Shown here in pieces: positions 6,268 through 63,050 of a DNA stretch of 64,000 bases. The DNA comes from Perkinsus olseni (lineage: Eukaryota; Perkinsozoa; Perkinsida; Perkinsidae). How positions within the stretch are numbered: position 1 is the stretch's first letter; each line of letters opens with the position of its first letter. The stretch lies in assembly GCA_013115135.1 (NCBI GenBank), contig JABANP010000191.1:27147-91146 (forward strand), written 5' to 3'. The position numbers were made by a program, and so were the translations under genes. Below the pieces are notes generated by a model. It was given only the letters and a program-made list of their open reading frames with translations. It made no database searches and was not told where the DNA came from.

Positions 6268-8460
6268 CAGTGATGACTTCCAAGTCGAACTACAGACACT
6301 GGAGACCAGCCTGATGTCGCTGAGCTCTGAGGAATTGCAGTTGTAGGCGATCGCTTGGTGTTGTCTACTTTACACTGTGCCCATCATCAGATGGGGTCGC
6401 AATCCTGAAGAGTACATGAAGGAGATCCGGGAGCGTATGGCTGTGAATCAGCGGGTAATGGCTAGCATCATCTGTTGGGTATCAGTAGTATTGACTTCAG
6501 GTGTGCCATTTGTTGTCGGAGGTATCCACGCAGATGTTCAGCGAGAGCAGCCCTAGGACGGCCGCGAGGGCAATAAAACCGCCTAAAGGTCGTATGGGTA
6601 TTCTTATGGGGTCGCAGTACGATTTTTTGTAATTTCGAGTTGCTGCTACAGCGTTTGGCGTGGTGAATTTTTCTGACATTTTTGTGCGGCCTCTCTGGTT
6701 CAAATTTAGTGGTCCCTTATCGTTGGTTGATGAGGCTTAGTCGGGTTGGACTACGTGGCTTAATAAACAGTATTGGGTTAATATATAATATTATTACAGG
6801 GCATCATACATTATAAATATGGGCATAGAATATATTATACACTTAACTTATATATGGGTGTCTATATCCTTGTAATGCTTTTTGATATGTAAGGGGATTA
6901 TTATATAGATTAAAATACAATACGAATGGGTTACTTATTAACGATTATCGTGGATTATCGGGCCTTCAGGACACCAGTCGCAGCCACGGAACATATCCAA
7001 GGTTCGTTCTACCCTTCGCCAGTTCGTGAGGGAATGGTCTGTTGAGGGGGAGGAAGAGAGACGACAATGTTTTGAACCTGTCATTGATGCTCTCAAGAGG
7101 TAGGGATCATTGTTGACCTCAAGATTCCGAACTTGCTTCGACCTAAGATACGTTCCAGCTGGCGGTAGAGTCATCGTGCCGGGTTGTGGTATGGGGAGAA
7201 GCGTGCTTGAGGTGTGCGCGGCTGGATACGAGGCTCTTGGGAAATGAATTCTCGTAAGTGGGTGAGGTCAAGCGGGCACTATGGCACTTGGCAGATTTTT
7301 AGATACCACATGTTGATTGCATCCAAATTTGATGTTGAATGTTGGGCTTGATAAACTCACTATGAAGGTGTTTCCGTATCTCATGAGCTTGGGAGGTCGA
7401 AAGAAGAAAGATGCGCATCTTAGAGGTATCGAGGTAAGCATGGGTATCGGAGAAGGTTCCTTCCTGGTCCACCCATTAGTAGCAGGCGTATCTTAGGTCG
7501 ATCCATGCTCATTACCGATACCACTGTATATGTGTTCCTCGTATAACGATCAGGATGTAGTCCTAGTGTAGTACGGCCCCTCAGGTGCCTGATGTTTCCG
7601 CCTACGATATGGCCTGTAGTAGCGAGTCCGGGTCGATGGGGATGAGTGCTGGGGAGTTTGTGGAGGTAATGGTACATATTCAACTTTTGGGACCTTCGAC
7701 TCGTGCTTGACCAATGCCTCTCCTTCAGACCTTCCGTGGTGAGGAGCACCTTAATGCATGGGATGCCGTAGCGTCTATTTTCTTCATAGACACGGCTAAG
7801 AATGTCGTCCAGTAGGTTGTCATCGGCGAAGGGTAGGGCATTTGGACGGTGGGAGTTGTAGGTACATAAGAGTGCTAGCTCACTGCATCAAGCCCGGCGG
7901 GGTGTTCATTAACATCGGTCCATTGCTATGGCACTTTGCCGAGAACAAGAATGATATCAGTATAGAGCTCAGCTGGCAGGATGTAATTCAGGGGGAGGGT
8001 TGTCCGGGGAGGGACGTTCTACTGCCCATCGTGATGGAGTATGAGAGACAGGGTTTTGGTAGAAGACGTAAACGCCCAGCATCTGTAGCCTATTGGTGGA
8101 TTCGTGAACATCGTTCGTTTAACAGCGTAGCGTATTCACGCGGGTTCGATCCCAGGTACGGCCATTATTAGAAGTTTATTTCGATATAGTGGAAGAGAAG
8201 CGGTTGGACGCCAATTATGCGGCCAACTTGGACAGTCTGTCTGAGGTAGTAGATATTTTCCCGCGCGCCATGAAATTGCCAAGCTCCGACACACTTTGTT
8301 TCAGTCACTATTCCATTGTGTTTTCTACGTGGCTCGGAGGAACAATCGTCCTGTGGAGGGACATTCCAATTCGGTTTATGTGTTGGAAGAAGAGGAAGAG
8401 AAGAGGCGCCGTCAGCAGCTCCACAACAGCAACGGTGGTCGGGCAGTTTCTAAGAGCTAG
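6268..8460 (+). CDS. CARNMT1: Carnosine N-methyltransferase (N2227 family)
   Basis: SAM-dependent methyltransferase of the N2227/CARNMT1 family, which methylates carnosine-type His peptides. Exons: up to 6342, 6391-6478, about 6978-7099, 7148-7253, 7303-7433, 7585-7665, 7729-7811, 7862-8058, 8190-8245, 8305-8460. In order they give IREx(6)NQ; then STLRQFVREWS; then the SAM-binding loop VIVPGCGMGRSVLEV with GNEFS; then VPDVSAYD and FFIDTAKNVV; then CIKPGGVFINIGPLLWHF and SIELSW; and the C-terminal FHCVFYVARR. This is the full family order seen in the human protein. Two single-base excesses break the frame: GGGAAA before TGAATTC at 7239-7244, and AAATTT at 7325-7330. The upstream start is not located. 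One intron (6479-6977) is unusually long and AT-rich. Confidence 0.85.
6770..6930. other. AT-rich block inside a CARNMT1 intron
   Basis: About 160 nt composed largely of TATA, ATTATA and TTAATA runs, in clear contrast with the surrounding balanced sequence. It falls inside the 499-nt intron between the CARNMT1 exons ending at 6478 and beginning near 6978, roughly ten times the usual intron length here. It holds no open frame. Confidence 0.5.
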
Positions 8461-43379: not shown

Positions 43380-43620
43380 TGTTGTGGGACGAATTGGTCG
43401 TCACTCGCCACAATTCTCAGTCACGCGCCATAAAACCTTCGGCCCGTAATGAGTAGACAATTCCTGTGACCATTGTGATATGGCTCTGGTAGCTCAATGA
43501 CGCTAAGCTGTGCTGAAGCTATAGAGTGCTTCACACGTACTCGTTAACGTAGACGATTCGTGGACGATTCGTAGACTATTCGACGCTTCTTGTATTCGTA
43601 CAAGTGCGTATCAAGGTGCA
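43380..43620 (+). repeat. 5' LTR
   Basis: 241 bp, TG...CA. Matches the 3' LTR with two substitutions next to its TTCGGCCCG copy, plus a 2-nt A-run length difference near the end. It contains direct repeats of ACGATTCGTAG-type sequence (about 43550-43580). The similarity continues as AGGTTTTGG versus AGTTTTTGG just beyond the CA, so the boundary could be a few bases further. Confidence 0.9.
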
Positions 43621-43626
43621 AGGTTT

Positions 43627-43640
43627 TGGTTGCGTTATCT
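43627..43640 (+). other. Putative primer-binding site
   Basis: TGGTTGCGTTATC begins 7 nt after the LTR with the expected TGG. The matching tRNA cannot be identified from this window; it is not the tRNA-Lys at 38640. Confidence 0.35.
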
Positions 43641-43756
43641 TACCCTAGTTGGCCGGTTATTGTTACACGTTGTAGTCTATACAACCCCGTATACCTTGAC
43701 ATCTAATTGGTAGCAGCTCCTTGTTCTACTACTACGTGTATTAATTGGTTATCATA

Positions 43757-44910
43757 ATGGTATCTGGTGATTTTCCTATGATCGAGAAGAATGTGGAAGA
43801 AGTTGCGGAGGCCACCTTCAACCAGTATAAGGAGATGGGAGCCTCGGATGAAGTGGCTCAGATGGCTCGAGATTCGGCCCGAGCTAGTGCTGTATCTCAT
43901 AATAAGGTAGTGAGAGCCCTGAGAGAAGCGGGATTCGATCCTAATTCCGGCGATTCTTCTGGTTCTGTGCCTCGTGTTACTTCCGCTTCGTCGCCTGATC
44001 CTGTTGGTTCTACTGTGATTCAAGTAATGCAGACGCCTATGCCTGAGCGTTACGATGGTGTTACTGACTTCGAGGACTGGTTACGTCGCTATGAGGCCGA
44101 TGCCCGTGGCGCCGGTTGGACTGAGCCTCAAATGGCTGAGCGTCTTGGTAACTATCTTCGTGACGTTTACTTTGACGTGTGGCATCAGCATTGTACTAAG
44201 AAGGACTTTGAGGCGGACCGTTTATCGTTGTTGGCTATGTTCTCTCCGGTTCGGCCCGATGAGATTTTGGCTAAGTTTAATGGTATGGTTTGGGATCGTT
44301 CGACCCGTGTGGTGGCGTTCTTAACCTCTCTCCGCCGTTGTATGAATCACTACAACAAGTCTCTTCCTGCTGAGAGGAAGCTTAGTGCCGAAACTATGGA
44401 CCAGATGATTATGGATAGGTTAATCGTCAACGCCCCGGATGCGGCTAAGTCGGTGCTTCGTCGTCGAGCCCCGAAGACGGTTAAGGAGATTTGTGAGATT
44501 TTTGAGGACTACAAGGAGAAGTTCGGCCCGTCTGCCCAATCTAATCGGCCCGCTGCTGCTGTGCATGCGGAGACTATTACTGGTGGTGATGACGTGAAGG
44601 GTCTCTCTAATGTAGTCCAAGCTATGGTTGGTTCCCTGGGGAAGCTTTTCGAGCAACAAGAACGCAGGCTTGCTGCTGGGAAGTCCCCTAAGAACCAAGA
44701 TAAGGGTCGTAATCGTAGACGTTCTCCTCCGAAGTGCTTCTTTTGTGTACCGATAAGCATTGGTTGAAGGACTGCCCGTACAAGAAGTTCAGCGAGGGTT
44801 GCTTTGTATGTGGTTCCAAGGATCACATGGCTCGTGATTGTCCCAAGCTGGCAGCTCTCCGTGGTTCTATTAATAGTAAGAAGTCGACTGCTGGGTCGGG
44901 AAACTTCTAG
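43757..44910 (+). CDS. Gag (capsid-nucleocapsid) of the LTR element
   Basis: Starts at ATG 43757. The middle is a retrotransposon Gag capsid-like helical domain (ERYDGVTDFEDWLRRYEADA and following). The C-terminus has two CCHC zinc knuckles: CFFC-x4-HWLKDC, and CFVCGSKDHMARDC. The first knuckle is split: frame 2 runs to 44746 and the rest is in frame 1, and adding one G in TGTGTACC (44744-44751) restores the Cx2Cx4Hx4C spacing. Gag ends at TAG 44908-44910, immediately after the frameshift signal into pol. The four motif copies inside gag fall in three different frames. Confidence 0.85.
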
Positions 44911-44938
44911 GGCGCTCGTCTGACAGCCCACGAGCGCC
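44898..44938 (+). promoter_or_regulatory. Canonical -1 ribosomal frameshift signal (gag to pol)
   Basis: Slippery heptamer G-GGA-AAC at 44898-44904 in the gag frame, then a 6-nt spacer that includes the gag TAG, then a perfect 9-bp stem (GGCGCTCGT 44911-44919 with ACGAGCGCC 44930-44938) around a 10-nt loop. The pol frame is open from 44880, overlaps the end of gag and is exactly -1 relative to it. Heptamer, spacing and stem all meet the known requirements; GGGAAAC is used by some retroviruses. Confidence 0.85.
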
Positions 44939-47900
44939 GAAGGTTGAGTTGATCCCTTTTGGGAGAGACAATGGTTTATTTCTCTTTTCCGACTTGACTT
45001 CTAATCAACAACGACTTGGTCCCCTTCGTTGCCTGGTAGATACTGGCTGTTGTTCTACTATGGTGGCTAAAAAGGTATTACCTAAGGGGGTGACTATTCG
45101 GCCCGTTGTTGGTCCTGCTCTTATGACTATTGATAGATCTATTTGTAAGATTGTTGGTGTGGTATCGCTTACGGTAGAGGTTTATGATTGTGATAATGCT
45201 CGTCAAGGCATTCATCCTGGTGAGGATGAGCCAAGGATTCCGTTCCCCGTTTCGGCCCTGGTCGTGGATTCTCTGGCTTATGATGTTATCTTGGGTCACG
45301 ATTTCTTGAACCACTTCGAGCTGGATATTCGATACTCTGAGTCTCCTACAAGGATTGTTGGTCGTTGGCCCCTGATAAGGCCCCTCGTATACCATGGTTT
45401 ACGGAGCACCCGGTTCAAGCGGCTAACTTGACTTCTAAGTTCCAGGTGTATGCTTCTTCGGCCCGTATCCCTGAGTATGGTGGTGAACCTTTGAACGACT
45501 CCTTCGACTTGTCTTGTCCGGAGTATCTTCCAGCTGGTGCCGGTAAGAAGGTGGATGTGGTACCCTTGACGGATGATGAGCTTCGCGAAAAAGGGATTAC
45601 CGGTTATGAAGGGTGGGATGCCTACGCCTATGACTTCTGCGATGCCGAGTCGTGGTGAGTTGGATGCCCCACGACGATGGCCTCCGTCTGGTTTTGAGGA
45701 CGTTGACGACTTGCAAGATGACCCGATTTCGGATCCTTTGAAGTTCGCAGTTCCTGACTTTACTGATGATTCGGTGAAGTTGCCGGACTTCTGCTCTTCG
45801 CCGTCTGAGGAGCAGAGGCCGGTGGCTGAATTGTGTGAGGAGTTTCAAGATTTATTCACTGTTCGGCCCGGTTATTGCGATACTATGGAACATGCTATTA
45901 ATACTGGTTCTCGATCCCCACTGTGCGAACGTGTTCGGCCCGTTCCTCATCGTTGGCGCGAAGAAGTTTCGGCTTTGCTCAAGGAGATGGAGTCCCTGGG
46001 AGTTATTCGTAGGAGTACCTCTCCATGGCGGTTTCCTTGTGTATTCGTTCCAAAGAAGAACGGTAAGGTCCGTATGTGTATTGATTATCGTGGTCTCAAC
46101 AGGCTGTGTGACACGGAGGCTTATCCCTGTTCCTCGGCCTGATGACGTGCAGGAACACTTGAGTTCGGCCCGATATTTTACTACGTTGGATCTGCGCAGT
46201 GGCTATTGGCAAGTCCCGGTTCGGCCCGAAGATCAGCCCAAGACAGCTTTCTGTCCTGGGCCTGGCTTTCCCTTTATACGAATGGCTTAGGATGCCTTTT
46301 GGATTATCTTCGGCCCCTGCTACGTTCCAGAGACTTATGGATTCTATAGTTGGCGACCTTCCCTTCGTAAGATGCTACCTCGATGACTTGCTTATTTTTA
46401 GCTCGTCGTTAGAGGAGCATTTGGCCCATCTGCGACAAGTCTTTGAGGCCCTGAGGAAGTTTGGTTTGACCATAGCGGCTGAGAAGTGCTCGATATGTCA
46501 GTCATCGGTTGACTATCTTGGTCATACATTCGGCCCGGACGGAATGACCCCTGACGTTAAGAAGGTTGAGTCTATTGTTCGCTGGCCGACGCCTACTTCA
46601 CCGACTGAGTTACGGTCTTTCTTGGGATTGGCTAACTATTACCGAGGGTTCTTGCCTGACTATTCGGCCCGTACTCGGCCCTTGTACGACCTCTTGAATG
46701 GGGGAGGTAAGGATAAGCAGACTGACTTGGATGTCTGGACCGATATTCATGAGGTTGCCTTCATGGACGTTAAGGAGAGTTTGGCGCGCTTACCATTACT
46801 GGGTTATCCGGATTTCACTCGGCCCTTCCAACTCATCACCGATGCTAGTGATGTGGCCATTGGTGCGGTATTAGAGCAAGATGGGCACCCGCTTTCCTTC
46901 TTCAGTCAATCCCTGACTAAGACGCAGAGACGATGGCCAGTGTATGAGCGTGAGGCTTATGCTATCTTCCGATCACTTGAGAGGTTTCGCAATATCCTAT
47001 TGGGGTATCCGTTGGAATTGGTGGTCTTTACGGATCACAAGCCTCTTACCTTTATGGAGACTTCGACGACTCCCAAGGTGCAACGGTGGATGCTAAGTCT
47101 CTGTCAGTACTCTTTTACTGTGCAGTATCGGCCCGGTAAGGAGAATGTTGTGGCAGATGCGTTGTCGAGGATTCCTTCGGCCCGTTCGGTTGAATCTCCT
47201 GCGGGAAATGACGATGAAGGGTGACGAAATCTTCGGCCCGGCTGCGGCGGTCTCTGTGGTACCCTTGCCTTCCGTTACTTCTTCGGCCCGTACGACTAAA
47301 GGTGTTCCTCGAGGCAGGGTTCTTATCGTGAGTCCCCTACAGCGAGCCCAGTTGTTACAAGAACAGCGAGTAGAAGGTTCTCATCGTCAAGTTCGGCGAT
47401 TGGCTCCGACGGTGGATTACTCGTCCAACCCCTTGATTGACTTTGATGAAGATGGTCTCTTAGTGAGGAAGGTTCATAGTAATGGAAGGGTTTACTACGT
47501 CCCCGTTGTTCCTCCAAGGCTACGAGATGCGGTGTTATTTGAGACTCACGAGAATCATGGTCATCAAGGTCTCCGTCGAGCGAATCAGTTCCTGCAAGAG
47601 AGGTTCTACTGGAGTGGCATGAGTGAGCACTTGTATGGTCATATTGGTTGCTGTTCGGCCTGTTATCCCGATTCGAGTGACGGGACTCCTGCGACACTGA
47701 GTAGTGAAGCTGATGATGTCTCCGTGCTGCCAGCTATGATGGCTATGCCAGTAAGTTCTTTGCCAAGATCTTCCCCGACATCGAGTTCGGCCCGTTCGGT
47801 AATCTCTGCTAATCTTGTCACCGCTTGTGAGCAGTGGTCTAAGCAAGAGCTTGCCCAGAAACAAGACGAAGACGATGTTTTGGTGATCGTGAAGGCCCGA

Positions 47901-50052
47901 CTACGTGAAGAAGAACCTTTCAGTCGCAGAGACATTCAGAATGTTGACTTTCGGCCCTATCGTCGGTTATGGTCTGTGCTCTTTCCTGGATGAGGAAGGC
48001 TTACTGGTTCGTATGGTCAAGCAGTTGCCCGAGGATGACAAGGCGTATGTTCCGGTGATTCCTACAGCCTTGCGGCATGATGTTCTCTACCGTTTCCATG
48101 ATCGTGGTGGACATTTCGGCCGTAATCATGTGTGGGATCGGATGCGTCGACTTTGCTTTTTGGCCCGGTATGAACCTCGACATTGCAGAGTATGTCTCTC
48201 GTTGTGCCCGTTGCCTGACCAGTAAGGCTAAGCAGAAGGCCCCTGCGTTCTTGGTCCCGTTCCCGGTTGGGAAGCCATGGCACACGGTGGCTATGGACTT
48301 CCTGTATATCGGCCCGTCGGATCAAGGACAGACCAAGCTGTTGGTGTTTGTCGACCACTTCACTCGTTGGGCTGACGCTTATGTAGTTGCTGGTGAGGGT
48401 GCGTCGGACGCCCTCGGCCCGGTTTTACAAGTGTTTTCCCAGTTCGGCCCGCCGTCTAGGATCTTAAGTGACCAAGGCAGTGCATTTGAGAGTAAGGTTT
48501 TCACGGACGCCTTAAGGATTATGGGTGTGGCTAAGGCTCGGTCTACACCTCACCATCCTAACTCTAATGGTCACGTAGAGCGCTTTAATGCAACTATATT
48601 GGGTCTGTTACGTTCCTACACTCCAACGGGTTGGTGACTGGCAAGAGCACCTTCGTGCTGTGCTCTGGCAGTATAATGTGACGCCTCATTCTTCGACTGG
48701 TTTCAGCCCGTACTATTTGATGTATGGTCGGGAGGCTCCGGCTTCTACGTTCCCAAGTTTGGCCCGTTATGCGACGCTCATGTACGACCCGGATGGCTAT
48801 GCTGCTTATTTGGCTCGTGCGAGAGCGAAGATCGCTGATTTGGTAGATGAGTGGGTAACGGCTGGTGGTGCTGCCCAGCGTAAGGTTGCTGAACAACAAC
48901 AAGCACTTCTACGGTATTTTGTAGGGCAGCGTGTTAGGATGAAGATTTTTTACTCTAACACTACCCCCGGTCACAAGCTTCTACCGAAATGGCAGACAGA
49001 TTGGTACGTGGTGAAGTTCCTGCCAGGCGTCCACAACAAGACGGTGGTAGTCCGACACTATCCTGATTTACGAGAGAAGGTTATCTCGACGGATTATCTT
49101 CTGCCTGACCCGGCCCAGCCTGAGCAGATTCCAGCGTGTCTCCGCATTCAACGTGGTCCTCCGCCAGAGCCTGAATCGCCAGCGGTTCCGATGTATCCCT
49201 TCGATGGAGTACCTAGTGTGGCACCCCCGTCGATTACGGTTCCGCCAGCGACATCCGCCGAGGCAGGAGGTTCTTCAGCTGTGGCAGACGATGCGTCGGT
49301 TGCGGCTACTGATGGAGTATCACTGTCCGAAGCTCTTGGAGAAGCCTTCGATCCAGTTGGTATGGCCCCTCCTAATGCTCCTTTGGCCCGTAATGCCCAA
49401 CGACCTCCTGGTAATGTGGCTTATTCGGTGATTATGACGGCACCGCGAGTTCCTCAAGTACAGTCACCAAGTAGTCCCCGATCTGCTGATCAACTTCGGC
49501 CCGAGCCTCCTTCTTCGGCCCGACAGAGTGTGAGGTCAGAAGATTTCCAGGAGCCTGCAGAAGCACCGACCCCGAGACCAGCTCCGCCATCTATTCGATC
49601 TGATGCGAGGGTTTCTAGCCCGGCCCAGTCGTTGTTATCGATGCCTGGATCAGCCCCTGCAAGGATGTCGGTAGTTGCTTCTCCAGAAGAAGCCCGTGGT
49701 TCTGATGAGTCTCGCTTTGATTCACCACTTGGCTCTGTAGAAGGTGCTGACGAGGTGCCCGCTGATAATTCGGCCCGTTCGGTTGGTTTCATTTACACCA
49801 AGAACTCCTCCGTCTTCAGCTGGTAGTCAACGACCTTCAGAGCGATCCGATATTATCGAGGCAGATGTGCCCGATCCTCCTGTACAGGCAGAGGTGCCTG
49901 TGCCTGTTGTTGAAGCTCCTCAGCAAGAGCAGCCTCATGAATCCGGCCCGTTTGCTGGAAGACCATTGCGTACGACCAGAGGTGGACGTACAAGTCGGCC
50001 CCCTAGGAAGTTTTCGCCTAGTCGATATACTTCCCAAGGAGGTTACGAGTAG
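44905..50052 (+). CDS. Pol polyprotein: protease, reverse transcriptase, RNase H, integrase
   Basis: Entered by -1 frameshift. Protease near 45030 (CLVDTGCCST, later VILGHDFL). RT 45860-46560 (KVRMCIDYRGLNRL, LDLRSGYWQV, MPFGLSSAPATFQ, YLDDLL at about 46376). RNase H 46820-47200 (LITDASDVAIGAVLEQDG, YEREAYAIFRSLERF, TDHKPL, ENVVADALSR). Integrase: two HHCC zinc modules (47430-47690 and 47985-48230), then core with AMDFLYIG, LSDQGSAF and NGHVERFN, and a long Pro/Ser-rich C-terminal tail. Single-base frame breaks at about 45360, 45645, 46125, 46255, 47215, 47960, 48157, 48635 and 49800 split it into overlapping frames. Catalytic residues are all present. Confidence 0.9.
47430..47690 (+). other. 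Extra integrase zinc-binding (HHCC) module
   Basis: DEDGLLVRK ... VPPRLRDAVLFETHENHGH ... FYWSGM ... CCSAC has the H-x3-H and C-x2-C of an integrase N-terminal domain, but is followed by a Ser/Thr linker instead of the catalytic core. The module next to the core (47985-48230: DEEGLLVRM, RHDVLYRFHDRGGH, FWPGM, CARC) repeats the same layout. Confidence 0.7.
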
Positions 50053-50646
50053 TTGTTGTGAAAATCCTCCTTCGGCCCTGTCAGGATTTTGCGGGGAGGA
50101 GAATGGGATCATTGTGGTGGACTTGAGGTAGCCCGTCCTTTCAATTTTACTCGTATTGCTTTGTTCGTTGACATGAGGTGTCATGACTGTTCGATGTGAC
50201 GTCCCGTTGTAAGCTAGCTGTTCTCTGTGATACGTATCCGTTAGACTTTCTCTTCGGGCCTGGCAGTTGTGAGCCTCGTCCTGAGAATGGTCTTCTTGTG
50301 ATGACAGGGTTTCTGTCTCCTTGTGCTCGCACGTGCTGATGAAATTTCGATCGAATTGTTATAATTGTGCACTATTAGTTTTAAGCGCTTATCAAGGATC
50401 GTTCCTTTATGATAGGACTCCTGTGCCTGCCTGCGGATGGCACAGTTGAGGCCGTATTAATTACGTAATTCGTTGTTGTCGTGATCTTGATTGTGCGTGA
50501 CGCAATGTTCGTGCACGCACGCGATTGTCTATCCGTTAATTGCCTGCGACCGTTTCTGATCTTAGCGGCGCCAGTATGAAACCGTTTCGGCCCGTAGATG
50601 TCCGGTGTCCGATTCTCGTTGATTACTGTCTTAGGCTTTTGACATA
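50053..50646 (+). other. Spacer between pol and the extra ORF
   Basis: 594 nt without an ORF. It holds a second copy of the polypurine tract (50087-50102), a TTCGGCCCT variant just before it, and one exact TTCGGCCCG at 50586. It could carry the promoter or subgenomic start for the extra ORF; no TATA-like element is obvious. Confidence 0.6.
50087..50102 (+). repeat. Internal copy of the polypurine tract
   Basis: TTTTGCGGGGAGGAGA is identical over 16 nt to the tract abutting the 3' LTR at 53939-53954. Both are preceded by TTCGGC and then AGG. Confidence 0.85.
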
Positions 50647-53600
50647 ATGTCGGCTAACGGTAACCTGCTACGTCTGCAAGAGCTTCTGGAAGTGCCGCCT
50701 GAGAGACGTGGAGAGTCTATGCAGCACTTCCTCGAGATTATTCGTCAAGAAGATCCGCCTACACCCACTTCGGCCCGCCAGTATGGGCACTCCCCGGACG
50801 ACTTTACTGGTGCTGGTATCAACCGTCGTCCTCGGCCCGTTACTGGAGAAGATGGTCGTGTCCGTAAACTTCACGATCGTAATGGCCAGTTGATGACTAT
50901 TGCTCCTAATAGCAGCGCGTCTTACTCTCCCAAGTGGTTTTCGGCCCGTAGTATCAGTGGTGCCCTTCGCGCCCTGGTCTCGTGGGGTTTTCCCTGGGTT
51001 CGTGATGAGGTGTTGGCCGAGGCTTGGGGTGAGCCGTTTCTATGGGACGATGGTTCGGTCGAGCTATGTGCGGTGGCGGCTTTCTACACGAAGGTGATTG
51101 ATGTGCCTTCGTACGAGAGAACCGTTGCTGGTTCGGCCCGGGACGACTTGGCTGTCAAGTGTTATGCCTGCGGTTTCTTCTTGTCGAGAGATTTGGCCTA
51201 TTTTTGCGATGTTTGCACCTGCGTGGTCAAGGTCAATGGTCACAATGCTGGTGATCAGATCTGGAGCCTGCGCAGGCACTTCGCTAGCAACGGGCATCGT
51301 GATAATCAGTGCTCGTTGCCGGGTCGTGCCAATCGTGGACGACTCAGTATGTTCCCATTTTTCTTTATGGATCATGAATGCTTCCGGTCCCTTTCGGCCC
51401 GTCAGTTTATGGATAATCTGCAGAGTGATGGTCTCAACCCGGCGTTGAAGCGGTTTGCTGCGGTGTCGCGAGCGTATCTTCGGCCCGGTATTCACTTTGT
51501 GTATATCCATAGAGGCCTAGGCCGACTGTTCTGCCTCTCTCGTCGTGAGCGGTTTGCACCGTCCAACCATCGCAGTGGTTCGGCCCCGTTCGTGCTGGAA
51601 GAAGGTACTTGTCCTTATGACCGAGTCATCAATAGAGCTCTTCGCCGACTTCGTGAAGATAATTTTGGTATGGTTCGGCCTGATGTGGATGTGGTCATGA
51701 GTGAGGAGTCAGGAGTTGGAGCTTCGCGTGAAGGCGAGTCTGAGTTTTCGGCCCGACCTACTCAAGCGACTGCTATTCCTCCTCCACCACCACTACCAGT
51801 TGGATATCAAGTGACGAGTGCGCCTCCTCCACCACCACCGGTTGGATACTCTGAAGCTCTACGTCGGCCCGAGAATGTGATGATGGCAAGGCCGTTGCTT
51901 CGTCCTGTGCGCTCTCAAGACCGTTCGGCCCGGCCTACGTTTCCGCCTCTTCCTCCGTTGCCGGAAGACCAGGTGCAAGCTGAGGACTTACGACTTCCGA
52001 CTGTTGGTCGTGTACCTCCAACGGGACCTTCGAGATGGCGTGATTGGGAAGGACCTCCTCCCGCTAGTCGCTACGAGCACCGTGATCAAGGACCAGCTGA
52101 TGTTCCAAGACCACTGCCAATGCCACGCTCCTCTTTGGCGACGACTCCCTATGATCGTGGGTATCGCTATGGTCATGGCTCTGCCGTATCCTTGGCCCCA
52201 GCAGAGCCTCGAGTTCAAGAGTTTGACGAGACCCCGGCAGAGGCGCCTTCAAGACCGGTGGAACTTCAGCCCGCTCAGCAAGAACTGGCTGTGGTCCCTA
52301 CTTCCTCTTCGGCCCAAGAAGATGTGACGGAGCTGAGATCGCCGTTTCCTCGTAATGTGGTGCCGATAGAAGAAGGAGCGGTATTGTTGACTTCGGTGGC
52401 AGGACTTGGTGCTGATGGTTTAGTCGTCCCCGATATGTTCCCTGCCCAGGTGGATGTTCATCACATTAGTGGTGTTCTTCAAGTACCAGGCAGTCTGTTG
52501 TTGGCGGCTACGATAACTATCCAGATCCCCACGGATGTCACTACTGGTCTGGCTATCGAAGGAGATTCGGCCCTTGAAGCTTTGGCGGTGTCGCGACCTC
52601 GTGGAGAAGAAGAAGCTCTACAAGATTTGCTGAGTGCGTCTCCTTCGGCCCGTGCTATGGATGATACGGTGAATTGGCGAGAGTTCGACGTTCGATCGTT
52701 GGCCAATACCGAAGCTGAGGTGGATGTCATCAACCAGACTCTGGAATCGCTCCCTATTTCGGAAGACTTGGATGGCTTTGTACCTCCTCTTCGGCCCGGT
52801 AATCTTACCAACTTTGACTGGGATATCGACTCTACTATTCGTCGAGCTGGTATGAGTCACCCTGGATGGACTTCGCCCTGGCCTTTTCGTCCTGGACCAT
52901 ATATGCCGTGGAGAATGGTTGCTTTGAGAAGAGGCCAAGATTCGGCCCGTGGAGATATGACGTATCTGGAACGCCCTCCTTACTTGGTGACTCGTGATCA
53001 AGTACTGAACGGTGATTGGGGTACGTTCTGGAGAGGTTTCGATGCTTCACGTGGTTGTCCTGGCTTTCTTGAGAATGAGTTTGTCGCCTTCAACCACCCT
53101 TTGGTTGCTGGCGTGGTGCCGAGCTTTGATGAAGACTGTTCGGCCCGTCTGCTCTTTCTCAACGAGCTTGGTGAGGGTCCTACGCGTGGTCATAGTACTC
53201 GCGAAGAAGCTTGGCCCGCGGATCCGGTGATCCCCTGTGCGCATGCCATCCTGCGTTGGCTACATTCGGCCCAACTTGGAGCAATGGCGGTGACTATTCA
53301 TTGTTCCGGAGGTTCGGCCCAAGGAGTCATTCGCTCGGAGGCGAGTGTGCTGTTTTGCTGCGAGTATCATCTGGAAGACTCGTTGGTTTCGGTTATGCGA
53401 TTGAGTCGAGAACGCCCACTTATGCCTAACAGCTACGTGTTTTCGGCCCGTTCTAACCGCGCCTTCGACTGTGGTCTCTTGGATGATCAAGGCCGCCCTT
53501 CCGGCCTGGATAGGCCCGAATCGCTCGTCGACATGTTGTACAAGTACGAGTCGGTGCGAGCTCGTGATGGTCATCCGCTGCCAAGGACTCCGTTGACACC

Positions 53601-53823
53601 GTTCCCTGAGCCTTTTGATCTTCGGCCCCGTGATCGTGTTTCGGCTCCTGCTACTGGTGTTAATCGCCCCCGTCGTCCGGAGCGCTATTCTCTGAACTAC
53701 GGTTGGTCTCGTGTCGCCGGTAATTTTGAGGAGTTAGCTCGGCCCGTTCTAGATCGCTGGTCTAGAATTCGAGGGTTCGGCCCGAGAAACGACGAAGGCC
53801 AGGCTCGCCATGGACAAGATTGA
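50647..53823 (+). CDS. Extra retrotransposon ORF of 1058 codons, unknown function
   Basis: Single intact frame in the env position. Residues 1-90: helical start then Arg-rich. Residues 95-220: a Cys/His-rich region (GALRALVSWGFPWVRDEVL, VKCYACGFFLSRD, FCDVCTC, WSLRRHFASNGHRDNQC) that looks zinc-binding and only loosely recalls a BIR fold; spacing does not fit BIR exactly. Residues 380-560 are Pro-rich with two PPPPP runs. Residues 640-1058: a predicted globular region (WTSPWPFRPGPYMPWRMV, FLENEFVAFNHPLVAGVV, LFCCEYHLEDSLVSVMRLS). No signal peptide or membrane helix is seen, so it is not an ordinary envelope protein. Unlike gag-pol it needs no frame repair. About half of all motif copies lie here. 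Confidence 0.85.
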   Translation: MSANGNLLRLQELLEVPPERRGESMQHFLEIIRQEDPPTPTSARQYGHSPDDFTGAGINRRPRPVTGEDGRVRKLHDRNGQLMTIAPNSSASYSPKWFSARSISGALRALVSWGFPWVRDEVLAEAWGEPFLWDDGSVELCAVAAFYTKVIDVPSYERTVAGSARDDLAVKCYACGFFLSRDLAYFCDVCTCVVKVNGHNAGDQIWSLRRHFASNGHRDNQCSLPGRANRGRLSMFPFFFMDHECFRSLSARQFMDNLQSDGLNPALKRFAAVSRAYLRPGIHFVYIHRGLGRLFCLSRRERFAPSNHRSGSAPFVLEEGTCPYDRVINRALRRLREDNFGMVRPDVDVVMSEESGVGASREGESEFSARPTQATAIPPPPPLPVGYQVTSAPPPPPPVGYSEALRRPENVMMARPLLRPVRSQDRSARPTFPPLPPLPEDQVQAEDLRLPTVGRVPPTGPSRWRDWEGPPPASRYEHRDQGPADVPRPLPMPRSSLATTPYDRGYRYGHGSAVSLAPAEPRVQEFDETPAEAPSRPVELQPAQQELAVVPTSSSAQEDVTELRSPFPRNVVPIEEGAVLLTSVAGLGADGLVVPDMFPAQVDVHHISGVLQVPGSLLLAATITIQIPTDVTTGLAIEGDSALEALAVSRPRGEEEALQDLLSASPSARAMDDTVNWREFDVRSLANTEAEVDVINQTLESLPISEDLDGFVPPLRPGNLTNFDWDIDSTIRRAGMSHPGWTSPWPFRPGPYMPWRMVALRRGQDSARGDMTYLERPPYLVTRDQVLNGDWGTFWRGFDASRGCPGFLENEFVAFNHPLVAGVVPSFDEDCSARLLFLNELGEGPTRGHSTREEAWPADPVIPCAHAILRWLHSAQLGAMAVTIHCSGGSAQGVIRSEASVLFCCEYHLEDSLVSVMRLSRERPLMPNSYVFSARSNRAFDCGLLDDQGRPSGLDRPESLVDMLYKYESVRARDGHPLPRTPLTPFPEPFDLRPRDRVSAPATGVNRPRRPERYSLNYGWSRVAGNFEELARPVLDRWSRIRGFGPRNDEGQARHGQD

Positions 53824-53938
53824 TGGACTGTGAAGGTGGATTCGGCCCGGTCGGCCGCATTTATGATGATCTGATAATGAAGATGAGACTTATTTTAATT
53901 GAGACTTTGATTTTTGCATCTCTCATTCGGCGCTTAGG

Positions 53939-53954
53939 TTTTGCGGGGAGGAGA
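53939..53954 (+). promoter_or_regulatory. 3' polypurine tract
   Basis: TTTTGCGGGGAGGAGA ends exactly one base before the TG of the 3' LTR (53955), the standard primer position for plus-strand DNA synthesis. Confidence 0.9.
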
Positions 53955-54197
53955 TGTTGTGGGACGAATTGGTCGTCACTCGCCACAATTCTCAGTCACG
54001 CGCCATAAAACCTTCGGCCCGAGATGAGTAGACAATTCCTGTGACCATTGTGATATGGCTCTGGTAGCTCAATGACGCTAAGCTGTGCTGAAGCTATAGA
54101 GTGCTTCACACGTACTCGTTAACGTAGACGATTCGTGGACGATTCGTAGACTATTCGACGCTTCTTGTATTCGTACAAAAGTGCGTATCAAGGTGCA
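53955..54197 (+). repeat. 3' LTR
   Basis: 243 bp, TG...CA, about 98% identical to the 5' LTR, with its own TTCGGCCCG copy at 54012. The sequence after it shows no duplicate of the 5' flank. Confidence 0.9.
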
Positions 54198-54647
54198 AGT
54201 TTTTGGCTGGCGGTAGATCGACGCTAGCGAAATTCACCGAGCAGAGGTTCAATCCCTGGTGAAGAGATCGGGTACGCGTACCAATGAGTGATGCGAATAA
54301 GTGGTGCGAGCTAGGCTAGCATAAGTTAGTGAACCTGCCGTGACATTTAGTATTGGTCATTGGGGCAGAGCCCCATAAGATGATTTGCGCTCAACCCTAC
54401 CACTCCCTGGATGCGGAGGTAGGCCACAGAAATCCAGCCATCCACAGATTGTAGATGTGGAGGGGCTAGCTTTCAGTGACCTACTGGATAACCGGCTGCT
54501 GCGGTCTTCTCCAGCAGCTGTCTTCCTTCCTCCGAGTTGCCGCCGCCGTGAGAGAACAACGGCATCTTCTTAATTACAGACTGCCACCACACCTAAAGTG
54601 TGGCTAATCCAGTGGGACGTCTTGCTGTGCAGCAGCAGTGACGTCCA
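54198..54647. other. Interval without recognised features
   Basis: About 450 nt between the LTR and the foldback element. One open plus frame (54385-54573) has no motif. No repeat was seen. Confidence 0.4.
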
Positions 54648-55059: not shown

Positions 55060-55570
55060 GTGTCAATGACACCGTGTCAAGAACAGACACGACTGCAGAT
55101 AGCGGCGGAAATCCCTAATCGGGGCACCGCAGCCACACTCCGGGGAGATAGCTAGGTCGCAGCGGAAACGAGTCCATGCGCAGGGGTCATAGCCCGACCG
55201 AACACCACAGCACTGGCCGCCGGAGTAACTTCCCTGCGGATCCAGAACGATGCCGGGGAGACACAAAAGAAGATCTCCTTAATGGCGGTTCCCGACTTGG
55301 CTCGCTCATCAGACCACCAGAAACGGGTGGCGATGCGCATCTGCTCCTTCAAGTATCGAGTGAGGGTTCGACCACTGGCGCATCCCTCAGCATTCACCTC
55401 CGAGAGGCTTCCGCCTTGGGCCGCCAGCTGGTCGGCCACCTCATTGCCCTCGACTTCGGAGTGCCCTGGGACCCAGTGCGACCGTACTATCTCGGTGAGT
55501 CCTCGAAGTAGGATGGCAATCTGCCTTGTCTTCTCCCATTTCTGGGTTCTGGATCGACTTGCCAACTTGT
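55060..55570 (-). pseudogene. LINE (non-LTR) RNase H and 3' end remnant
   Basis: The minus frame 55152-55565 reads SHWVPGHSEVEGNEVADQLA, the RNase H C-terminal signature of non-LTR elements, followed by a helical region. Beyond a frame change toward 55070 come spaced cysteines and a His typical of the zinc-knuckle that follows. No reverse transcriptase is present, so it is a 3' fragment. Confidence 0.7.
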
Positions 55571-56207: not shown

Positions 56208-57096
56208 GCAATCTCCTCGCGTATGCGTGCTGCACGCAGCGTGCAGCCTACTGAGCAGGACATAGTCGCCTGCTGCAAGGCAGCAAATCGTGACATATTG
56301 TAACTAATGGTGCACGCACAGAAATTCACAGTCTCCCGCGATTGATGGTGACTACCCGAGCCAAGCTAGTACGATCCATGCAATTACAATCAGCTCAACC
56401 ACTAGGGCAATCACTAGCTCAATCACTCTCCACTAGCGAGCAGACTCTCGTGTCACCGGCTCGTCGTCAACACATTAACGATGCCAGCTGTTCATTGGCA
56501 TTGGTCAACGACCCTGATACATGCGAGCGTCCCCTGGGGCGGCATGAGTGATTGAAGAGAACTTTTTCTCTTGCCCCAATGGTGAGCATGTGGACGTGTT
56601 GTCCTCTCGCTACGATAGTCGATAGTGGGAAACCCGTAAAACAGCTGTCTGTCTCTCAGCCTTCTGAAGAATGCGGCATTCTGAATGCCCACATAATATG
56701 TATCGGTCAACACCCACGTTGAAAATCGGAGGATTTCGTTCACCTATCCACGTGTGTGGTGCGTGTTAACTTCTCCGTACAGATTCTACGGCGAGCATGA
56801 AGTTCTTTGTTAGCAACAATCCTTTAAAAGGCGAGCGGTCTCCGATAAGCTAGCTTCGCTGCGTACTCGCGTATCACGATTAGCTGTAGAAGGACTAGCG
56901 AATGATTCATTTTTGAATCGCCGAGTTTTTTGTCGGACGATGGAAGAAACTTCTAGGCTTCTGAGTTTGCTTCTGAAAGCACGGATTGACTATCAGATGT
57001 CAGCTTTATGAATGGCGATTCGACGTCAATTGTTGCAGAACACTCGCTTCGACCCTGGTCGGTGAGCGTTGGTATACCGCTGCCAATGGTCACCTC

Positions 57097-57310
57097 CCTA
57101 ATGGTATACAATTGTTAGGCGTAGCACGTCCCCAATGGTATACTATGGTCATGCTGGCCCGCCCCTCCCTAATGGTATACTATTGTTACGCTTCCCGGCA
57201 CCCCCCTAATGGTATGCTATTGTTACGCTTCCCGGCACCCCCCTAATGGTACACTATTGTTTTGCAGCAACACCTGGTGCTGCCCAGCAGCACCTCCCTA
57301 ATGGTTGTTA
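57097..57310. repeat. Minisatellite, unit about 36 bp
   Basis: CCCTAATGGTATAC-type units start at about 57097, 57131, 57167, 57205, 57241 and 57296. The two central units (57167-57241) are nearly identical and share ATTGTTACGCTTCCCGGCAC; outer units are diverged. Confidence 0.8.
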
Positions 57311-57801: not shown

Positions 57802-59619
57802 ATGTCCACCCGTTCGGCCTTCTTCGCGGCTATCTTGAGCGTAGCTGCCGGCCAGAGAGACATTTTGAGTATCCAGCAGCAGAGGTTACCTTTCCAGAAT
57901 GGAACCTTGCGCGATGTCTTCATCTCTCCTTCAGGTAGGGCCGCCATTGAGAACCATACTGATATCTATAACTTTGAGTCAAAGTCTTTGACCCTCAGGC
58001 ACGTTAAAGCATATTCAAACGATCCGAATCCAGGACGCGGTGGGGCCCCGCTCACAATTCGATGAGATCAGGTCGATAATTGTGAAATCGGACGGCTCTC
58101 AACTTCTCGCCATCAACGATGATGCGTGAGTCTTCTACTGATGGGACGGTGGATTTCGATAGTGGACGCCAACGTTTGGGTTTGACTCATTCTCAGATTA
58201 TTCTTCACCGTGCGCCTGGAGAAGACTCTCGGTGATGAGTTCGATGTGTCCGAAGCAGTGATATACCCGATGCGTGATCCTGATGGAGAGAGCATACCGT
58301 TTTTAGGAGACTCCGATACCGATTTGGATGGTGAGTGATGACACAGTGCTACTAGCAGTCGTCATTTCTCTGATGATCGATATACAGTTTATGATTTTTC
58401 GAACAGCTTGTCACCCGAACTGTTCAATGCTTAGTCTGATCCCAGATAGCAACCGCTACTCGACTGGAGTATGCTTCAGGTAATCCCCGAGGTTTAACCA
58501 TCGCCGGCGCTTATCCGGGCGAAGGAAGAGGAGAGCTCATTGTTAGCTTCGAGACGAGAAGGACCTTGCTCAAGTATGAGGCGGTCATTCGCTCATAGGC
58601 CGAAACTTTCGGCCCGAAAGGCAAAAATGAGTGTGTTCACGCCGTGAACTTCACGGCGAGCTTGCTGATGATTTTCAGGTACCCTGTCGGAGTCCGTTCA
58701 CGTACGAGTGTTGAGATCGACATATCTGAGCTGCTTGACGAATGCGACGTCGGGCCGCAAGCTATAACCAAAATGCGTAAGTGGGCAAGTGAATACCGCC
58801 TGGACTGAATGCGCAACCGTAGGTCCAAATCGACTCTTCCCTGGATACCTCCTCATGATCTGCGACGAGCCTACGAACAGCGATCCCAATGTCTACCCCG
58901 CCTTTGCATATGATGAGGGTGTTCCCACCCGTTTCTCGGTGGAGGTAGCCTGATTTCCCGTCTCGCATATCGACGACGCAGTATTGGATGCCCGATGCAC
59001 TACTTACGCTTCTCGCAACCGCGGGGATTAATCGCTCGAGCTTTCTGTTCTCATACAGTCTGATGGCGACTTCTTTCCTGTCGACATGGCGGGGTTGAGT
59101 AATGGAGATGTCATGATACTCTTCAGAGGGTGAGTCGCTCGGTTTCTTCGCCGCACCAATGACCCGCTTGCCTTTCGATCAGGCCGGACGACACTGAGAT
59201 GAGGATCGGCTTTGTCCCATCGAGAGACCTCACCCTGGCTATGCGTCGAGGCGACACAGTGGTACCACAAATCATACTTGAAGCGGCCGAAAGCGACGGG
59301 TGCGTGAGCTGTAGTCAGCTGGCGAGACTTCTAGTAGACGAAGTCGCGAAGTAGCTGATGACTCATCAGCTCCTTTGCGACTTCGTCTAGGTCTACTCAT
59401 CAGTGATGAGACTGTAGTTCGCCATACCTCTCGTTGCCGCTGTGGTTCATATCTTGGATTGTCGCAATGGAAAGCTGTTCTGTTAGGTTCAATATCGGCA
59501 GACAATCAGGATTGGCAATCCGCGAGGATCCAGACAATCGGGTTTTCGTCTATACCACGAGTGAAAGCCGCTCTGGTGGGCGTCCAACCCTACTTACGGC
59601 TTTCGAGTGGATAGCATGA
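57802..59619 (+). CDS. Secreted beta-rich protein of unknown function
   Basis: ATG 57802 opens a signal peptide (MSTRSAFFAAILSVAAGQRD). Exons follow with repeated short beta-strand patterns: 57802-about 58127, 58198-58331, 58442-58598, 58680-58772, about 58822-58952, 59040-59130, 59184-59299 and a last exon ending at TGA 59617. Recurrent elements are hydrophobic-x-hydrophobic strands followed by Asp/Asn-Gly turns (IIVKSDGSQLLAINDDA, LSVLIQSDGDFFPVDMAG, MRIGFVPSRDLTLAM). A GGGG at about 58045 must lose one G to keep the frame into the second half of exon 1. No family is recognised; the composition suggests an extracellular or surface protein. Confidence 0.5.
59335..59389. repeat. Long intronic hairpin
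   Basis: TAGACGAAGTCGC pairs with GCGACTTCGTCTA (13 bp outer stem) and AGCTGATGA with TCATCAGCT (9 bp inner stem), separated by a small internal loop. It falls in the last intron of the secreted-protein gene. Confidence 0.75.
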
Positions 59620-61970: not shown

Positions 61971-62840
61971 TGAATTCGCAGAGTAAGAATGGAACTGAGA
62001 CGACGGGACGTGTAGTAAACCCCGACAAACCCCATCGAGACGTTATTGTCAGTGACAATTTGTCACAAAAGTGGGCACGCCTGAGTTTGAAGTTTCGATG
62101 ACGGGAGACTGGCCCGCCGTCAACGGCCGGAAGTTTTCGCCTAAGCTACTTTTGCCATCGGATGGTCACCGCAGAATATGGATGGTACCCAACAGTTACT
62201 GTTGAACAGTACCACAAAATCGATCGTCTGTTTCCCGTGTGAGTTGTTTAGGCAGGGAAGCTTCGCATTGAGGCAATGTGGCTTGAGGGATTGGAAGAAT
62301 GCTCACGCTCTGCTCGTTGAAGACGAAAGAGCTGGTGTGCATAAGCAAAGTATGGTTGACTGGCGCGTGGCCTTGAAGAACATAACGCATGGGCCAGGGG
62401 TCTCACGAGAAGGCAATTCTACGTGAGGTGGAGAGATGGAGAGATATCCTCAGGCGTCTTTTCCACACCACACGATTCCTCTGCGCTCGAGGTCTAGCCC
62501 TGAGGGGCAATTCTCACAAGCTGGGTGATCCGGGAAATGGTAATTGGCTTGGGGTACTAGAAGTTGTAACTGAGTATGACGATCTGCTCCGGGAGCATCT
62601 CCGCGGGAAGGCTTAGCAGCGCAGGATGAGGACAGGAAGCTAGAGGTCTCATACCTCTCTCCATCAGTACAGACAGAACTCATCGCGGTCCTGGCGTCAA
62701 GGGCTCGATCAGTCATCCGAGAGGAGAGGACCGCGGCGAAATTTTATTCGGTGATATGTGATAGTACGCCGGATGGGTCCTTACTACTAGTAAGGTCCGT
62801 CCTGTGTGTCCGGGTGTATTACGATTCGTACACCGAAAAC
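61971..62840 (+). pseudogene. hAT-type transposase remnant (TTF zinc finger plus DUF4371)
   Basis: Reading across several frames: a TTF/ZMYM-like zinc finger (HRRIWMVPNSYC, IVCFPCELFRQGSF, LRDWKNAHALL, HKQSM); then ILRRLFHTTRFLCARGLALR, NGNWLGVLEVVTEYDDLLRE; then SYLSPSVQTELIAVL and SVICDSTPD. This is the N-terminal half of hAT transposases with DUF4371. The catalytic and dimerisation regions are missing: coding sequence stops where the CGTACAC repeats begin (about 62826). Frame breaks and truncation indicate a dead copy. Confidence 0.7.
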
Positions 62841-63050
62841 TAGTACACTATCACTTCGTACACGGCTCGTACACTGAATACTAGTTCACTCATTGGATTC
62901 ATACATCGTCATTTCGTACACTTGAGACTCGTATACATATAAAACTCGTACATGTAGTGGGTCGTACACATAAAGTTCGTACACGTGAATCTCATACACT
63001 GGCAACTCGTACTGTACGAGTCGTACACGAGCACGACTCGTACACTATGC
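62826..63050. repeat. Degenerate CGTACAC tandem tract
   Basis: At least ten copies of TCGTACAC or close variants (CATACAC, CGTATAC), spaced about 15-25 nt, with ATTTCGTACAC and ACTCGTACAC as the common longer forms and a CTCGTACTGTACGAG palindrome near 63009. No ORF. Confidence 0.75.

Follow-up and report, generated by a model that had tools for sequence, protein, structure and literature searches.

A short word repeated through a Ty3-type retrotransposon of Perkinsus olseni, and different words in related lineages: possible private RNA tags for packaging

The stretch analysed here, called the window, comprises 64,000 nucleotides of contig C103 of Perkinsus olseni (genome of 61.5 Mb). It contains, at 43380-54209, a Ty3-type long terminal repeat (LTR) retrotransposon with an extra open reading frame (ORF), named ORF X below, through which the nine-base word TTCGGCCCG is repeated. 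Related lineages of the same genome carry different words, each enriched in its own lineage. The words are biased to the sense strand, independent of the reading frame, conserved in the lineage of the window element (lineage A), replaced between lineages and evenly spaced in most of the lineages tested. On the basis of the sequences, we give an even chance to the proposal that the word is a lineage-private RNA tag, read by the nucleocapsid of the element's own Gag for the packaging of its own RNA. The wider proposal, i.e., that such words are private, frame-blind RNA passwords read by the zinc knuckles of each Gag and co-diverging with them, which would amount to a self/non-self packaging code and to a lookup table of zinc-knuckle specificity, is tentative and put somewhat short of an even chance.

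The word in the window element

TTCGGCCCG was counted 37 times on the + strand of the window, i.e., 36 times within 43380-54197 and once at 58608. The earlier note on this DNA, which had given about 36 exact copies in the element and a single one elsewhere, was thus accurate. A comparison with the antisense strand, proposed there as a check, gave 0 copies of the reverse complement in the window, so that the word is found only in the sense orientation inside the element, as claimed. No other 9-mer is as frequent in the element; for TTCGGCCCG, the second-order Markov expectation is 0.21 (the note had said well under one). Near-matches are common too, as the note had seen: with at most one mismatch, there are 62 sense copies and 1 antisense copy inside the element vs. 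7 and 4 outside. Outside the element, six blocks of 8 kb in the window contain no comparable word, save for tandem or local arrays in one block. Over the 61.5 Mb of the genome, TTCGGCCCG is present 617 times (366+251), i.e., with an excess of 244 over the reversed pattern (191+182 = 373), the only pattern used for this comparison.

The assignment to Ty3/gypsy follows from the LTRs, which flank RVT_1, RT_RNaseH, Integrase_H2C2 and rve in the Ty3 order (Pfam); the protease match is weak, short of the curated cut-off (E 0.0095). The same order of Pfam domains is found in single frames of the relatives F, H, E and D. In the window copy the frames of gag and pol are broken and ORF X is intact. The LTR direct repeats (224 nt at 99% and 31 nt at 94%) place the right end of the element nearer 54209 than 54197, which had been proposed earlier together with a start that is kept here. 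Since the LTRs match at 99% over 224 nt despite the broken frames, the window copy is either a recent insertion helped in trans or carries assembly errors. The parts of the element and the distribution of the exact words are as follows (aa, amino acids).

43380..43634, + strand: 5' LTR (direct repeats); one word, at 43438
43635-43744: leader; 0 of the 36 words
43745..44948, + strand: gag region, frames broken (ORF 43745-44767; zinc knuckles recognised by eye); three words, at 43873, 44250 and 44522
44735..44775, + strand: region of Gag zinc knuckle 1 (three-frame translation), interrupted by a frame change; uninterrupted in the relatives L007 and L009
44800..44841, + strand: Gag zinc knuckle 2, CX2CX4HX4C (CFVCGSKDHMARDC; three-frame translation)
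44949..49826, + strand: pol (protease, reverse transcriptase, RNase H, integrase; Pfam), in several broken frames; 16 exact words, at 45097, 45457, 45862, 45934, 46164, 46220, 46529, 46663, 47176, 47232, 47282, 47786, 48443, 49495, 49514 and 49769
49827..50646, + strand: spacer; one word, at 50586
50647..53823, + strand: ORF X, 1058 aa, intact, no Pfam match; 13 words, at 50769, 50940, 51132, 51393, 51479, 51747, 51924, 52644, 52790, 52941, 53139, 53442 and 53776
51205..51297, + strand: Cys-x2-Cys ... His-x5-His set of ORF X (C187, C190, H211, H217), invariant columns in a 9-sequence alignment
53824..53954, + strand: 3' noncoding stretch; one word, at 53841
53955..54209, + strand: 3' LTR; one word, at 54013

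Most of the words (32/36) are localized within the gag, pol or ORF X regions. The reading phases, assigned by hand from the ORF coordinates, are Ser-Ala-Arg (18 words, among them 10 of the 13 in ORF X), Arg-Pro (8) and Phe-Gly-Pro (5); four words are noncoding (43438, 50586, 53841 and 54013) and the one at 45457 lies between the listed ORFs. The phases reported earlier (19, 8, 5 and 4) fit this recount. The codon-preserving shuffles called for by the note, in which codons are swapped among synonymous positions with the protein and the codon usage fixed, fail to reproduce the count: ORF X has 13 words vs. a mean of 0.59 and a maximum of 3 in 300 shuffles.

Conservation in lineage A and other words in related lineages

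The word is present 36, 27 and 24 times in three copies of lineage A, and 0 or 1 time in each other element examined. Copies on contigs C469, C863, C388, C361, C240 and C386 were compared with the window element (DNA identity of 65-79% over the aligned stretches). With both directions pooled, the partner has the identical word at 64 of 90 instances, vs. 6.5% of 30,193 background 9-mers (relatives of about 70% identity); the word is thus conserved between element copies, as the earlier note had expected. On the window side, 22 of the 36 word sites were aligned, the other 14 being outside the alignments, and one or more relatives keep 16 of these 22 (C469 14/21, C863 11/20, C388 1/4, C361 2/3, C240 2/2, C386 2/2). 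Identity is 0.87-0.92 across the nine positions of the word vs. 0.45-0.88 at the flanks. At third codon positions of ORF X it is 0.90 inside words (n = 81) vs. 0.49 outside (n = 2064). Because of these two results, the word is constrained at whatever codon position its bases stand, while sites are also gained and lost.

The claim of selection on the nucleic acid itself, most likely at the level of RNA, is therefore backed by the codon shuffles, the frame independence, the bias to one strand and the near-equal protection of the nine bases. The alternative left by the note, i.e., a dispersal process copying the 9-mer, fares less well. A mutational or copying process (biased conversion in reverse transcription, or 9-mer insertion) which spreads the word without selection would agree with its presence in any frame and in noncoding DNA, and with the common near-matches. 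In a closer relative (C341, about 85% identical), moreover, 6 of 11 instances are unchanged (3/8 and 3/3, overlapping loci) vs. 34% of background, a sample too small to demonstrate constraint. Such a process is nevertheless very improbable, since alignment gaps are rarer at words (3 of 90 instances) than in background (10.7%), conservation ends at the word edges and the spacing is even. The gap counts also led to the rejection of a process inserting the whole 9-mer at once; the interpretation of the earlier note is thus supported in its part on selection at the level of the nucleic acid, presumably RNA, and not in that on insertion.

One further copy must be noted, a short element on C92 (L006:2825-7260), about 97% identical to the window element. 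It consists of LTR, ORF X and LTR, without gag-pol, is probably non-autonomous, and has an intact 1058-aa ORF X with 16 words.

Related lineages were found by ORF X and reverse transcriptase (RT) searches of the genome, and words of 6 to 10 bases (6 to 9 in one round) were enumerated for each. All come from a single genome, and outside lineage A the one to few copies per lineage are too dependent for a conservation test. The counts below refer to the stretches read of each element.

Lineage A, TTCGGCCCG, window element on C103: 36 sense, 0 antisense
Lineage B, TGTCCCG, C511: 22 sense, 2 antisense
Lineage C, CGGCCTT, C533: 13 sense, 1 antisense
Lineage D, AGGCCTT, C224: 40 sense, 11 antisense (3 non-overlapping with sense copies)
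Lineage E, GGCCAG, C632: 65 sense, 6 antisense (0 non-overlapping)
Lineage F, GGYCGG, C13: 51 sense, 3 antisense (0 non-overlapping)
Lineage G, KGTACG, C422: 27 sense, 2 antisense (tentative)
Lineage H, CYGACCG, C636: 34 sense, 7 antisense

A matrix of words against elements shows high counts of each word in its own lineage, for the most part in sense orientation. Six lineages are firm (A, B, D, E, F and H), C is weaker and G tentative. Visually, a loose alignment of the words around G-N-C-C can be made (G-T-A-C in lineage G). The RT tree groups E and F as sisters (97/99) and G with H (90/100), the other branches being without resolution. No word was found in the C35 element (L055) or in a 3 kb sample of the outgroup on C23 (L063). 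The former (C35:281200-290200) has LTRs 75% identical to those of the window element and differs in its inner ORFs (471 and 468 aa).

No codon-preserving shuffle reaches the own-word count of C pol or of any ORF analysed in A, B, D, E, F and H. Observed values vs. shuffle maxima are, for example, 13 vs. 5 for B (C719), 9 vs. 4 for C pol, 23 vs. 6 for D pol, 38 vs. 13 for E pol, 20 vs. 10 for F pol and 15 vs. 7 for H pol. For G pol, KGTACG is found 21 times vs. a maximum of 13 in 500 shuffles; the G copy on C598, 98% identical and thus not independent, has 10 sense copies and 1 antisense copy in 2.5 kb. The three frames are evenly used in D pol (9/6/8) and in both E ORFs (13/14/11 and 8/8/8). 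These results bear on an artefact of codon usage, peptide repeats, composition or assembly. Such an origin could be suspected because Ser-Ala-Arg is the commonest reading in lineage A, yet it is contradicted for A, D, E and H, and least firmly for C and G, by the shuffles, the even use of frames in D pol and E, the noncoding copies, the blocks of the window without such a word and the presence of the A word on other contigs at 65-98% identity. It is hardly credible as a general explanation.

Between lineages, no word is kept at aligned sites (A-B 0/6, E-F 0/19 and C-D 0/1, i.e., 0/26) and identity inside words is not above that of the flanks. Some sites are switched in place: the F word stands at 4 of 19 E words and the E word at 4 of 17 F words, whereas about 0.1 of 19 coincidences is expected from the word density (51 words in 8 kb; our own estimate). 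A change of word thus seems to involve dozens of sites lost and regained, some of them rewritten in place. Within lineage B, the C719 and C511 copies are 97.6% identical; B compared with C633 gave no alignment in the identity range used, and the copies of lineage C gave none. Another copy, on C449, is 76% identical to E.

The spacing of the words was analysed in eight arrays, B being counted as two and lineage C left out. The coefficient of variation (CV) of the gaps is below the random mean in 8/8 arrays, and gaps shorter than 30 nt are rarer than random, also in 8/8. The fraction of 5000 random draws with a CV equal to or lower than that observed is 0.0000 for E, 0.0096 and 0.0042 for B, 0.0046 for H, 0.0092 for F and 0.039 for D, i.e., the spacing is more even than chance in five of the seven lineages tested. 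F and H words continue through the 3' noncoding parts. F words stop at 6444 except for two stray copies; the spacing test left out 2 of the 51 F words, beyond the apparent end of the F element, and no H word.

Candidate readers of the words

Three steps lead to Gag. (i) RNA rather than DNA is probably read, because the orientation follows the transcript and the words are found in coding sequence, spacer and LTR alike. (ii) The element itself probably encodes the reader, as several words exist side by side in a single genome. (iii) Gag is the best candidate, because each lineage read has the twin zinc knuckles and ORF X was not found in two word-bearing lineages. Among the readers named by the earlier note (Gag, the product of the extra ORF, a host RNA-binding protein), Gag is thus the best fit. 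Packaging would be the outcome.

In 10 gag copies from the 8 lineages, gag ends in two zinc knuckles, CX2CX3HX4C and CX2CX4HX4C, separated by an eight-residue joiner. The knuckles were compared in 9 rows, the window copy being left out owing to the frame change in its knuckle 1. The residue after the histidine of knuckle 1 takes 7 states and two further positions of knuckle 1 take 8 and 7 states, whereas the matching stretch of knuckle 2 (L/M/I-A/S-R) takes 3, 2 and 1. Over the 10 copies, the residue after the knuckle-1 histidine is W in all three of lineage A, A in B, Y in C, M in D, L in E, S in F, R in G and W in H. Such variation would be expected with knuckle 1 determining the word; it is a description and not a proof.

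ORF X is an orphan protein family of Ty3 lineages in this genome, where its relatives have 28-98% identity and lie downstream of pol in several such lineages. The only protein match is P. olseni FOZ60_003795 (97%), among the scored candidates sharing most words; with the start of E pol there are 2 matches, both from P. olseni, among candidates selected in the same way. A scan of viral contigs found no relative. AlphaFold models of two regions of ORF X are poor (mean pLDDT 39 and 33). Profiles of two conserved regions match A, D, E and G, and gave no match at E <0.1 in the stretches read of F or H, both of which have words.

These data also bear on other RNA readers, i.e., ORF X, Pol or a host RNA-binding protein chosen by the lineage, acting in nuclear export, stability or translation. 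Any RNA reader would fit the sense-strand bias and the frame independence, the invariant C187, C190, H211 and H217 of ORF X resemble by eye a C2H2 zinc finger, and the C92 copy has retained ORF X and its words and is devoid of gag-pol. Against this, the product of the extra ORF, proposed by the earlier note, is disfavoured by the word-bearing lineages F and H, and a single host protein does not account for different words in one genome. Altogether these readers are unlikely, albeit the foremost of the alternatives. A host small-RNA site, a modification site or a shared host RNA-binding protein was set aside because other lineages of the genome have other words.

Another alternative is anti-silencing at the DNA level, as by the VANC proteins of VANDAL transposons of Arabidopsis, in which a protein of the element would bind the words in chromatin and lift silencing. 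VANC motifs are short, dense, in one orientation and family-enriched, with other motifs in other families (PMC5735166), but they lie mainly in noncoding tandem repeats (PMC5735166, PMC10398659). In the present element the words are spaced, not clustered, and largely within the gag, pol and ORF X regions. Moreover, the D word contains the palindrome AGGCCT, yet 32 of 40 D words have no antisense copy over them. A DNA reader of this kind is improbable.

Several results weigh against private tags read by Gag. VANC motifs, which are read as DNA, also have one orientation, so that strand bias alone is no proof of an RNA reader (PMC5735166). Antisense copies not overlapping sense copies are present in H (7) and D (3). 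The words were picked in the same sequences as those tested; in a word-blind test, the commonest observed 7-mer was set against the highest 7-mer count reached in any shuffle. Here B C511 pol (7 vs. 11), F pol (7 vs. 9) and D ORF X (7 vs. 7) stay at or below the shuffles, and C pol is only just above them (9 vs. 8). For lineage C the case is weak, C533 ORF X having no copy of the C word and the C533 locus no significant word. The G word was found post hoc, none having passed the first screen, and the best G word ranks 14th. The evenness of the spacing falls short of significance in A (0.083) and G (0.067), and the predicted single-strandedness of words is not above that of same-composition words in 5 of 6 lineages (E, p 0.037). 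As for the knuckles, their link to the words is descriptive, knuckle 2 is also variable (four other positions with 5 or 6 states), and H and A share W after the knuckle-1 histidine and have different words.

If Gag is nevertheless the reader, many evenly spread weak sites would let it coat and select full-length RNA of its own lineage. A shift in knuckle specificity would be followed by the rewriting of dozens of sites, some in place, and sister elements would thereby cease to package each other's RNA. Elements that lack gag-pol, e.g., the C92 copy, would keep the word and be packaged in trans.

Known systems, meaning and neighbouring features

DNA uptake sequences of Haemophilus and Neisseria are words of 9-12 bases multiplied across a genome, lineage-specific and used for self-recognition; they differ in that they belong to bacterial chromosomal DNA, serve transformation and are found on both strands.

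VANC proteins exert a sequence-specific anti-silencing through motifs read as DNA (PMC5735166, PMC10398659), and VANDAL elements may be considered as the nearest relatives in logic: short family-enriched motifs in one orientation, multiplied within the element and different between families. The difference lies in a DNA-binding protein and noncoding tandem arrays there, vs. a retrotransposon with spaced words dispersed through coding sequence and conserved at all codon positions here; neither the localization of the words nor the rarity of gaps below 30 nt agrees with such arrays. In the case of RNA viruses, multiple dispersed packaging signals are secondary-structure elements sharing a recognition motif, at many sites of the genomic RNA, for the coat protein (PMC6281560). 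The words would seem to work most like these signals, as a recurrent motif over the whole genomic RNA on the sense strand. They are, however, linear 6-9-mers, different in coexisting related elements, and no structural context such as stem-loops was detected: over six lineages, predicted accessibility shows no consistent difference from that of same-composition words. The word system is filed under neither, because it misses a tested feature of each.

Zinc knuckles of retroviruses bind exposed guanosines in short sequences, including the single-stranded RNA UGUGCCCUUCU in HIV-1, at several sites per RNA (PMC7599994). The sites described there are in the packaging signal psi or the 5' leader (PMC7599994), whereas the present words extend from LTR to LTR and are absent from the leader (43635-43744). 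In Ty1, also an LTR retrotransposon, Gag selects the RNA of its own element: it has a similar affinity for different RNAs and prefers psi-containing Ty1 RNA in competition (PMC8396678). The abstract mentions no dispersed word.

No description of a comparable word system was found in the literature searched, at the level of titles and first lines of abstracts and with most subscription journals outside the coverage. How Gag picks its own RNA among the RNAs of the cell is poorly understood, the in vitro affinity of Ty1 Gag explaining it only in part (PMC8396678). If the words are packaging tags, they would provide (i) a natural code for RNA recognition by zinc knuckles; (ii) a means of mutual exclusion among related selfish elements; (iii) a clear example of protein-coding sequence rewritten at dozens of sites by selection on the RNA. 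Six firm lineages, the weaker C and the tentative G, which differ from one another in word and in nucleocapsid, would hold a testable answer in sequence. Should the reader turn out to be another one, retrotransposons with private words blind to the reading frame would still have to be explained.

Three neighbouring features are added. A local short-repeat array of TCGTACAC / ACTCGTACA type is present near the right end of the window (62826-63038) and beside an LTR on contig C35 (L052:3060-3262); ACTCGTACA near the C35 LTRs was considered as a further private word and dropped, being a local array outside the element. A 37-bp tandem repeat (4.7 copies, 81% matches) occupies 57091-57261 of the window. 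Lastly, a minus-strand ORF at 55152-55565 resembles by eye the RNase H of a non-LTR element (HWVPGHSEVEGNEVAD).

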